Shown here: in pieces, positions 23,499-26,155 of the stretch
Numbering within the stretch: the first letter of the stretch is position 1
How the letters are laid out: every line of letters begins with the position of its first letter
Assembly: GCA_947565985.1 (NCBI GenBank)
Contig: CANOID010000018.1
Location: forward strand, 1 to 34,147
Length of the DNA: 34,147 nucleotides
Direction of reading: 5' to 3'
Source of the DNA: an uncultured Lachnoclostridium sp.
Lineage (GTDB): Bacteria > Bacillota > Clostridia > Lachnospirales > Lachnospiraceae
The notes under the pieces: generated by a model
Database searches by the model: none
Told to the model about the DNA's origin: nothing
What the model saw: only the letters and a program-made list of their open reading frames with translations
Translations under genes and position numbers: made by a program

Positions 23499-23863
23499 AG
23501 TTCACCCCATCTTTTCTTTTACTTATTCTGAAAAGGAATATTTTTTCATTCTTTTCCTTCTTCCTTTTTTCCCTTATATATGTTATATTAATAATAAAAA
23601 GATGCTTGTTTTGCCTTATCGGCACTTTCGGCACTTTTTTTCTGAACTTTCTTTTGCAATATGTATTTAGTGTATATTTTACGTATATCACAATATACCT
23701 AATAAAAAACTGCCGAAAGTGCCGATAGAGAAATATTATTATTATATAAATATAGAGTTTATGGGGGAAAGAGAGGAAAAGGAAGATAAAAAAAGTACGG
23801 CACTTTTAGAAAAAATTCTGCCAAAAAAGTGTCAATAAAACTGCCGATAATCAATTTTGCAAT
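23499..23863. other. Candidate phage replication origin with iterons
   Basis: A 365-bp AT-rich gap with no gene, directly after the primase-helicase stop. It holds repeated CGGCACTTT motifs: two in tandem at 23620-23637, the same arrangement inverted at 23711-23727, one at 23798-23806 and a partial one near 23842. The 17-bp arms TATCGGCACTTTCGGCA (23617-23633) and its exact complement (23711-23727) flank 77 bases of AT-rich DNA. Phage-inducible islands with a related Rep helicase have paired iteron sets flanking an AT-rich stretch next to the gene; the likeness is the basis of this call. Confidence 0.6.
23617..23727. repeat. 17-bp inverted iteron pair
   Basis: Each arm holds one complete CGGCACTTT plus a second CGGCA. 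The arms are exact inverted copies 77 bases apart. Other copies lie at 23798 and, within the 3' end of the primase gene, at 23914-23922, with a degenerate TTGGCACTTTTT at about 23935. This gives about six copies within 330 bases. Confidence 0.8.
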
Positions 23864-26155
23864 TTATGAAAATGGCAAGTCCTTAAACTCTTCCTGTGTC
23901 ATTTTTCTGAAATCGGCACTTTTTTCAGTTTCTGTTGGCACTTTTTCTACAGATATTCCAACAAAGTATCTTTCATTCTTTCCCTTGACTTCTGAAAAGC
24001 TTTTTATCCTTAATGCTTTAAAAAATCCATTTCGTGTTAGTGTCTTGCGTTCCTCTTCTTCACAATATTTTTCAAAATCCCTATATGCGGCTATTCTTTC
24101 CATTCTTAGCCCTGTCCCAACAGTGCATCTATCATTTATCCAGCTTTCTACTACATCACTATCTTTTCTCATTTGAAGTACAGCCTTTTTACTATTTTCA
24201 GATATTGTTATAATCCCTCTTTGATACATCCTATGTACTGCTTGTAATGCAAGATTAATAAAATACTCAATTTCTTTAACAAGCTTATCTGCAAGTTCTA
24301 TATCTGGTGTATCTGGCTGTTTATCCATTTTTAAGACAAGAAGCCTTCTATAAAAACCGTTTGTGCGTTCCGATGGAACGGCTGGCAGTGTATTTGTTGA
24401 AAATAATAACTTACTATAATTTTTAAACATAAAAGCATTTTCGCCTTTAAACTCTGCCATAAGGCTGTCCTCACCAAGCAGTTTCTTAAGTGTACTAGCG
24501 TCATTTAGTGCGTCAATAGATAAATCAGCACAGGAATTCAAGGTCTTGCCTACAAGTATTGAAGTTGAAAACCTCTTCTCAAGTTCCTGCATTCCAACAT
24601 TAGAAATATTGGAATCTCCAACAGCAGTTTGCACTAGACGTATCATTATACTTTTTCCCGTTCCGCCAAGACCGCAAAGTGTTAAGAATCTTTGCTGTGA
24701 TGTATCTGTTGTAAAACACAATCCTGTATACTCAAGAAACATTTCCCTGTCATCCGCACTTGAAAAAATAGAATCAAAAAACTTTTCTATTTTTTTCCCC
24801 TCTGCTGCCTTTTTAACATTTTCATATCTAAAGGGTATCTGGTTTATAGATAGATATTCTGGACTATGTACAATTTCCTGCATAGTTTTCGCATCAAGCA
24901 TACAGTCTTTAAAATTAATCCAGCTTTTTGAATAACAATTTAGTTCTGAAAAATCTTTCTGCAATTCTTCTGCGTCTACTATCAGATTATATACTTGATT
25001 TATTGTTCTACTTTTTATAAACTGCGGATATAAAAATTTTCTAATAATCTGTTTAAGCTTTGTACCTCTGCGGTCAGCAACATATACTCCATCAAAATAT
25101 ATGTAAGGAAAACCACATACAAACAATGGATAGTTTTCTTTGATATACTTAAAAATTTCATAATCAAAGACTCCTACAGGTACACCCTCTTTGTTAAAGC
25201 GGTGAAACCTTGATAAATCAGGTGGCTTTTCTTCTGCATCCACATCATCTATGTCAAACTTTTCAGCCTTTTTAAGTGCATCCCATATCTTTTCTGCTGC
25301 CGCATCCCCATCTTTCAGATATAATTCTGATGGGTCTTTGACACCAAACTGGTCACAACTCCATGTATAAACTTCTCCCGTAAACTTTTCACTCTTAAGT
25401 ATTTGGCATACCTTAGATAAAAATGCCTGTCCACCTTTGTCTGGTTCTTTGTGGATGTACAATTTTAGCCCTTGTAGTTTTAAAGCCATCCTTGCATTAA
25501 ATACACTTGCCCCTGGAATGCCAAGAGCTGGAAATTTTAGATGCCACAAAGTTTGTGTATCACTTTCACCTTCAACCAAAACTACATAGCCATTTTTACG
25601 TATCTCTGGTAGCCGCCACTCGCCGTAAAGAATAAGATTGCCAGTTGCCTTACTGCTCCATCTAAATGTTTTACCGCCATATCTTTTTCTGTAAACTGAT
25701 GCTTTACCATCTTCATTTTCGTACAAGATTTTAAGATATTTTGTGCCATCTCTGTCCTTTGCAGTGCTTGCCTTGCACATATCCCTTAAAAAATCCTCTG
25801 GCAGGTGCTTATCCTTAGCGTACTCCTCAAGTGTATAGCTCTTAAATCCCCTACTTTTTGGCTTCTTCTCTGGGTCGTTAAATTTCCCATACTTCTTTAG
25901 AATCTCTTTGTATGCTTCTTTGGTATCTATGCCGTAAATCTTTGCATAAAAGCTTGTAAAATTGCCTTTATCATCCTCTGCAAAGCACTTCCATTTCCCT
26001 GTCTTTAAGTTCACAGAAAAACTGTTTTCTTTATCATCATGGAATGGGCATCTACTGCTTAACTGTCCTCTGCTAACCTTTACATTCTTTAGAACAGCCT
26101 TATACTCTGCTTCATAGTCAACAAAGTCATCCATGTTAATATGTCCTGTGTCCAA
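23864..26155 (-). CDS. Phage primase-helicase (TOPRIM + D5_N + SF3 helicase)
   Basis: A protein of about 763 residues combining priming and unwinding for phage DNA replication. The N-terminus has a CHC2-like zinc finger, CPFH then WKCFAED: Cys, His and Cys are present, but the fourth Cys is replaced by Glu. Next comes a TOPRIM-like domain (VVLVEGESDTQTL, then IHKEPDKGG), the D5_N domain, and an SF3 helicase with Walker A GLGGTGKS (about residue 500), Walker B-like CADLS and the motif C LLFSTNTLP. The start is uncertain: TTG 26155 follows GGAGG by eight bases; ATG 26134 is the alternative, and the frame is open to 26164. Confidence 0.9.
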   Translation of the reverse strand: MDTGHINMDDFVDYEAEYKAVLKNVKVSRGQLSSRCPFHDDKENSFSVNLKTGKWKCFAEDDKGNFTSFYAKIYGIDTKEAYKEILKKYGKFNDPEKKPKSRGFKSYTLEEYAKDKHLPEDFLRDMCKASTAKDRDGTKYLKILYENEDGKASVYRKRYGGKTFRWSSKATGNLILYGEWRLPEIRKNGYVVLVEGESDTQTLWHLKFPALGIPGASVFNARMALKLQGLKLYIHKEPDKGGQAFLSKVCQILKSEKFTGEVYTWSCDQFGVKDPSELYLKDGDAAAEKIWDALKKAEKFDIDDVDAEEKPPDLSRFHRFNKEGVPVGVFDYEIFKYIKENYPLFVCGFPYIYFDGVYVADRRGTKLKQIIRKFLYPQFIKSRTINQVYNLIVDAEELQKDFSELNCYSKSWINFKDCMLDAKTMQEIVHSPEYLSINQIPFRYENVKKAAEGKKIEKFFDSIFSSADDREMFLEYTGLCFTTDTSQQRFLTLCGLGGTGKSIMIRLVQTAVGDSNISNVGMQELEKRFSTSILVGKTLNSCADLSIDALNDASTLKKLLGEDSLMAEFKGENAFMFKNYSKLLFSTNTLPAVPSERTNGFYRRLLVLKMDKQPDTPDIELADKLVKEIEYFINLALQAVHRMYQRGIITISENSKKAVLQMRKDSDVVESWINDRCTVGTGLRMERIAAYRDFEKYCEEEERKTLTRNGFFKALRIKSFSEVKGKNERYFVGISVEKVPTETEKSADFRKMTQEEFKDLPFS

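Follow-up and report, generated by a model that had tools for sequence, protein, structure and literature searches.

A candidate replication origin of the phage-inducible-island kind in a tailed Lachnospiraceae prophage, with iterons probably read by its own primase-helicase

Phage-inducible chromosomal islands (PICIs) – including Staphylococcus aureus pathogenicity islands (SaPIs) and islands of Escherichia coli – have origins in which two iteron sets lie around an AT-rich region, directly 3′ of the pri-rep gene. PMC6092414, published in 2018, demonstrates this layout for several E. coli islands, states that it extends to Gram-positive ones, and describes it as common to phage-inducible islands and 'no other known bacterial replicon'. 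Here, we describe such a layout in a tailed prophage of an uncultured Lachnoclostridium sp., on the 34,147-nucleotide contig CANOID010000018.1 – hereafter the window, which is the whole of this contig (C18) from a 2.76-Mb assembly of 185 contigs. An array of the iteron CGGCACTTT is found where the primase-helicase gene ends, and this site very likely serves the prophage as its replication origin, recognised by that same primase-helicase.

Other described systems share parts of this arrangement. The C-terminal domains of SaPI Rep and of Cch2, from staphylococcal cassette chromosome mec (SCCmec), recognise iterons directly downstream of their own genes, and the Cch2 iterons are AAGTG repeats (PMC7581432). 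Cch2 resembles the window's protein in being a D5-type helicase with direct repeats just downstream, and AAGTG is contained in the window's iteron as read in the sense of the gene (AAAGTGCCG), but the iterons of Cch2 number three and it lacks a fused primase, whereas the window has eight and a fused DnaG-like primase. The primases of SaPIbov1 and SaPI5 belong to the archaeo-eukaryotic primase family in the same source, unlike that of the window; the SaPI5 primase-helicase (PDB 7ola, 7om0) is the best solved match to the window's helicase half, with about 19% of the residues identical when aligned by Foldseek, and its primase half is different. The origin of pRN1 is also directly downstream of a primase-helicase with a C-terminal winged helix, but is described in PMC4234260 as a 100-nt stem-loop without iterons, served by an archaeo-eukaryotic primase. 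Streptococcus thermophilus phage Sfi21 has a non-coding origin in its replication module (the PER element; Foley 1998, as cited in PMC6356513), to which the window's site is likened by description, not by repeats or helicase. Because Sfi21-type phage origins were known in 1998, the novelty is limited.

The observed anatomy of the site is as follows (positions are those of the window).

23499–23863, no strand: intergenic stretch, proposed origin core (365 bp, 71.5% AT)
23620–23628, plus strand: iteron CGGCACTTT, exact, first tandem pair
23629–23637, plus strand: iteron CGGCACTTT, exact, first tandem pair
23634–23710, no strand: AT-rich 77-bp stretch between 17-bp arms (77.9% AT), proposed melting region
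23707–23715, minus strand: iteron CGGCAGTTT, one mismatch, second tandem pair
23716–23724, minus strand: iteron CGGCACTTT, exact, second tandem pair
23798–23806, plus strand: iteron CGGCACTTT, exact
23838–23846, minus strand: iteron CGGCAGTTT, one mismatch
23864–26164, minus strand: primase-helicase, 766 aa (Pfam, NCBIfam primase_Cterm, AlphaFold2, Foldseek)
23914–23922, plus strand: iteron CGGCACTTT, exact, within helicase-tail coding sequence
23936–23944, plus strand: iteron TGGCACTTT, one mismatch, within helicase-tail coding sequence
23951–24199, minus strand: winged-helix coding stretch, residues 656–738, proposed iteron-reading domain (model and covariation)

The word CGGCACTTT has five exact copies over both strands of the window, all within the 303 bases 23620–23922, against a mean of 0.08 and a maximum of one in 100 dinucleotide shuffles. 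With one mismatch allowed there are 13 copies (shuffle mean 4.5, largest 10), eight of them clustered in 23620–23944. A first-pass annotation of this DNA, which had counted about six occurrences in 330 bases and proposed the comparison with shuffled sequence, was thus right about the clustering, and the count becomes five exact or eight near copies. Its interval, 23499–23945, is longer than the gap between genes, which is 23499–23863: six copies (23620–23846) lie immediately 3′ of the gene end at 23864, as in PICIs and SaPIs, while the other two, at 23914 and 23936, fall within the last 81 bases of the gene itself. The remaining contigs of the assembly hold 13 further copies of CGGCACTTT, each on a separate contig.

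The arms 23617–23633 and 23711–23727 are exact 17-bp reverse complements, as noted in that annotation, and the 77 bp between them are AT-rich to a degree equalled by 1.0% of the 77-mers of the window. When extended, the arms reach 24 nt at 96% complementarity, each with two iterons at 9-bp spacing, one of these four copies being mismatched. The two tandem pairs (23620/23629 and 23707/23716) point oppositely and are 69 bp apart (78% AT), matching the PICI and SaPI layout of two iteron sets around an AT-rich stretch. DnaA boxes have the consensus TTWTNCACA, and no exact match to it is present in the gap (exact matches only being scanned; nine in the window against 6.7 expected), so a DnaA-dependent iteron origin of the plasmid type was rejected. 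A nucleotide search of the gap among phage records gave a single chance-like 31-bp match, and a literature search for CGGCACTTT gave, among the matches listed, only works unrelated by title.

The protein encoded next to the array combines a primase with a superfamily 3 (SF3) helicase. Pfam places a CHC2 zinc finger at residues 34–93, D5_N at 379–467 and SF3/DUF5906 at 496–607, with PF19263 and PF08706 above cut-off, and TIGR01613 (primase_Cterm, D5/SF3, P4 family) is matched at 164.5 bits against a cut-off of 108.7. No Toprim match is listed by Pfam, which names just the zinc finger of the primase half; the description of the protein as TOPRIM plus SF3, made at first pass, holds for SF3 by Pfam and fold, and for TOPRIM by fold and PHROG matches to DnaG-type primases. 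The top folds in the PDB by Foldseek are Aquifex DnaG (2au3), spanning the zinc-binding and polymerase domains in a long multi-domain alignment with a root-mean-square deviation of 27, and the SaPI5 primase-helicase (7ola), which is also the best sequence match among solved structures (phmmer 3e-17; Foldseek 6e-12). An AlphaFold2 model built from 19 sequences (mean pLDDT, the predicted local distance difference test, 81; pTM, the predicted template modelling score, 0.52; parts of 534–599 below 50) has a C-terminal winged helix at 656–738, with a presumed recognition helix at 711–720 and wing at 725–738; Pfam matches to RFX and Pox_D5 winged helices fall below their cut-offs.

Among 397 genomes of the family, 36 encode the primase-helicase at E ≤ 1e-20, as do 38 among 391 of the class, the source genome being counted. 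The first six relatives have no CGGCACTTT in the DNA examined, and in the nearest, L001 (70% identical), the same gap is filled by GTGTCACTTT words in a similar arrangement. A survey of 82 distinct gene ends, window included, scored a cluster where the count of an 8-mer was reached by no more than two of 200 shuffles, and found one at 37. The observed position is nearly specific: 750-bp windows with at least four copies of one 8-mer number 36/82, 36/80 and 34/80 at offsets of −500, −250 and 0 relative to the stop codon of the helicase, and between 0 and 4 at each of the other offsets. Two opposed tandem pairs are present in 23 of the 37 clustered loci (a count made without a chance control for pairs), and in 22 of those 23 the gap between them is more AT-rich than the surrounding region. 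A same-strand open reading frame (ORF) of at least 50 aa starts no more than 60 bases from the stop at 16 of the 45 clusterless ends against 6 of the 37 clustered ones, and at least 200 bases precede such an ORF at 10 of 45 against 21 of 37. Conservation among relatives with the same primase, as the first-pass annotation would have had it, therefore fails for the word and holds for the position and, in many relatives, the geometry.

The copies within the gene recur as well. Among 15 members of the window's family, with one mismatch allowed, a member's own word has 2.2 copies per locus in the coding stretch 150–10 bases before the gene end and 6.3 in the 400 bases after the stop, compared with 0.32 and 0.57 for the words of the others; L001, with no copy in the coding stretch, and L111, with a single copy after the stop, are exceptions. 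The protein tail encoded by this stretch varies between members. Copies such as these, together with several others outside the AT-rich core, would suit iterons that are operator or copy-control sites for the same protein or another regulator instead of a replication start, and plasmid iterons often serve control as well as initiation; but the array follows the gene and is not at its promoter, and the AT-rich stretch between opposed pairs recurs among relatives, so that we regard a purely regulatory role as quite unlikely.

Similar clusters are found in named phages. A significant cluster follows the helicase gene in eight of 11 named records (FP_Epona, THSA-485A, Javan385, PI-Sepi-HH2, the satellite Javan379, phi105, LincolnB and R23.1), three of the 11 being also among the 82 gene ends, and none was found in Javan163, Oceanotoga phage UFV02 or Vibrio phage VpaJT_1. 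Opposed tandem pairs are present in six of the 11 (FP_Epona, THSA-485A, PI-Sepi-HH2, Javan379, phi105 and R23.1), and in all but PI-Sepi-HH2 and R23.1 the AT content of the gap is clearly above that of the locus. The pairs of Javan379 are at nearly the same distance from the stop as those of the window (gap +153 to +219 against +157 to +226), and the island-type layout is shared by the window, FP_Epona, THSA-485A and phi105. The replicon type proposed for Clostridia phages is thus a wider one, since Bacillus phage phi105 and the Streptococcus satellite Javan379 are included.

If the helicase reads the iterons, changes of word would be expected to follow changes in its C-terminal domain, and several close pairs behave in this way. 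L034 and L082 are 93% identical in the rest of the helicase and 71% in the last 140 residues, and their words differ, whereas L082 and L086 (97% and 99%) have one common word; likewise L103 and L104 (99% and 86%) have AGGCGTAA and AGGCGATA, whereas the words of L101 and L104 (95% and 99%) agree. The pairwise comparison covered 53 loci and 221 pairs, five loci (L106, L107, L111, L112 and L114) being admitted by hand, all weak and three with a top word of 3–4 copies. A controlled test used 38 of the 53 in three hand-picked families (15, 15 and 8 loci) with words entered by hand; of the 15 loci outside it some, e.g. L023, could have been included. In the window's family a first test was confounded, as the iterons encode part of the protein tail, and the covariation held when the test was repeated without the tail. 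With the tail excluded, and with the helicase controlled for, the partial correlations between iteron and winged-helix distances are 0.56, 0.45 and 0.60 (permutation p 0.0002, 0.0002 and 0.0036). The reverse partial correlations, of the helicase given the C-terminal part, come from the first test and are −0.11, −0.23 and −0.35. Sliding along the protein, the strongest signal is at the C-terminal end in all three families. In the window's family, covered from residue 331 onward, the top windows (0.50 and 0.52) include the tail and 661–730 gives 0.35; smaller positives occur elsewhere, with maxima of 0.30 (DUF927 family, 181–250) and 0.26 (third family). The modelled winged helix of the window is a domain that covaries with the iteron among relatives, a covariation for which no earlier description was found in the open-licence literature, most subscription papers lying outside it. 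It is extremely unlikely that the repeats have a different role in the phage, for instance in packaging its DNA or in recombination, and owe their place to history, given that clusters are concentrated at helicase stops and vary with the C-terminal domain of the helicase, and that the nearest terminase gene of the window ends about 2.4 kb away.

Several observations weigh against an origin read by its own helicase. No clustered 8-mer was found at 45 of the 82 gene ends, which include those of the fairly close helicases L017–L019, L021, L022 and L024 (33–38% identity), and 14 of the 37 clustered loci are without two inverted tandem pairs. Taken plainly, word sharing correlates slightly better with the last 140 residues (0.49) than with the remainder (0.43), with overlapping ranges, and the permutation p-values are optimistic, the sequences being related. 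The inverted arms also form a strong RNA hairpin (z −4.3, 100 shuffles), and a transcript hairpin that ends or protects the message after the primase gene would account for both this fold and the near-perfect complementarity of the 24-nt arms. A simple scan for promoters and terminators found nothing in the gap, and searches for Rfam-type RNA families gave just microRNA models on the inverted repeat, far below gathering scores; the iterons are moreover also direct repeats and lie in the gene, inverted pairs are missing from those same 14 loci, and the word varies with the winged helix, which together make an RNA role very unlikely.

The site is best read as a self-loading-helicase origin of the phage-inducible-island kind, here in a tailed prophage, and an island-like layout with a helicase that probably reads the repeats – as first proposed – is supported by the clusters at helicase stops, the model, the fold matches and the covariation. 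We infer a course of initiation in which the C-terminal winged helix would bind the CGGCACTTT iterons, the opposed tandem pairs flanking the AT-rich stretch would seat two helicase rings face to face, the AT-rich stretch would melt and the SF3 rings unwind outward, and the fused DnaG-type primase would prime for the replisome. The finding is stronger than first stated, yet of a known kind of origin; as far as could be seen, the tailed-phage setting with a DnaG-type primase, the private word, the link to the winged helix and the in-gene copies are new.

Many relatives combine a window-like primase half with a DUF927 helicase, and in one of these, L005, Pfam names a 'Cch helix turn helix' domain besides DUF927. 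Iterons of this class have the format AG-N-N-G-N-N-A-N-N. From 13 training loci a rule was drawn up in which a wing residue (X2) sets the last bases (tryptophan GG, arginine CA, lysine CC), and both this rule and a second one (X1), for the middle triplet, were fixed after new loci were named and before their repeats were inspected. Among 78 new loci (L129–L206), 40 fit the wing pattern and the 38 outside it were unscored; 19 of the 40 were dropped as duplicates of an earlier locus in the last 140 residues, leaving 21. Of 20 new distinct loci with tryptophan or arginine, the residues that this test covers (K → CC lying outside it), 18 obeyed the X2 rule (13/15 and 5/5, respectively); L152, with tyrosine, had no prediction, and the call of GG for L151 (GG 4, TG 4) was made by hand. 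The split between the two residues among 19 parsed new loci has a Fisher p of 0.0005. The failures, L129 and L158, have tryptophan with an iteron ending in C, or with TTCA, and may show further contacts setting specificity. A further comparison took in the training loci and was confined to pairs, not independent of one another, with at least 78% identity over the 500 residues that precede the last 140. Where X2 differs, so does the first of the final two iteron bases in 20 of 27 such pairs; where X2 is shared, that base is shared too in 131 of 137. The preset word format, AGGYG-NNA-NN, was broken at positions 3–4 in six of 20 (L135, L138, L143, L156, L164 and L166) and was loosened afterwards to AG-N-N-G. 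The X1 rule is not claimed: it fits nine of 15 new loci with a residue seen in training (L129, L131, L138, L145, L146, L149, L150, L151 and L153) and misses six (L139, L154, L156, L158, L164 and L166). The residue-level rule concerns the DUF927 class, and for the window's own class the sequences point to covariation at the level of the domain.

The window-like primase half is also found in L003–L006, L039, L040, L042, L043, L087, L090 and further loci of the DUF927 survey, its partner being either the D5/SF3 helicase of the window or a DUF927 helicase with a Cch-type helix-turn-helix (L005 tested); L087 is annotated as a primase with an MCM-like helicase. Together, helicase and origin resemble a cassette that can be exchanged. 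At its other extreme the window's protein ends in ...DLPFS (23864–23890), and many relatives have acidic tips with LPF or PY (DDDLPF in L090, L091 and L092); a tip pattern written after viewing the tails matches 33 of 96 relatives and 19 of 479 other ORFs of at least 150 aa. The tip resembles the C-terminal tip of the single-stranded DNA-binding protein (SSB), and may recruit host replication proteins.

The window carries tailed prophage genes for small and large terminase, portal, head protease, sheath, tape measure and baseplate, and so differs from a satellite that has no virion structural genes of its own. The right part of the contig contains:

30638–31840: integrase
32013–32462: recX, after the integrase gene
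32465–33619: recA, after recX

With recX and recA taken to be host genes, this order (30638–33619) suggests that the prophage adjoins host recA/recX. A gene for an Rpn-family recombination-promoting nuclease/putative transposase (29607–30557, TIGR01784) directly precedes the integrase. The left contig end falls among tail genes and the contig has no exact terminal repeat of 20–399 bases, so that completeness of the prophage is not established, and the initial view of a complete-looking phage gives way to that of a contig running off its left end among tail genes, beside host recX-recA.

The layout in a tailed prophage calls into question the island-only status claimed for it in PMC6092414. Near-identical initiators with different words amount to a natural experiment in origin choice by self-loading helicases, and one with predictions at the level of residues. 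We tentatively propose, as slightly less likely than not, that phages of Firmicutes share one origin architecture with a changeable word, in which a wing and its iteron would change in step, through point changes or through replacement of the gene end, to give mutually private replicons akin to incompatibility groups. Single wing residues would carry part of the code (tryptophan specifying an iteron that ends in GG, and arginine one in CA, within the DUF927 class); iterons in the last codons of the helicase's own gene would keep word and reader linked. The recurrence of clusters suggests a guide to origins in many uncultured gut phages, which may be sought as a private word of 8 to 10 bases just after the helicase stop.
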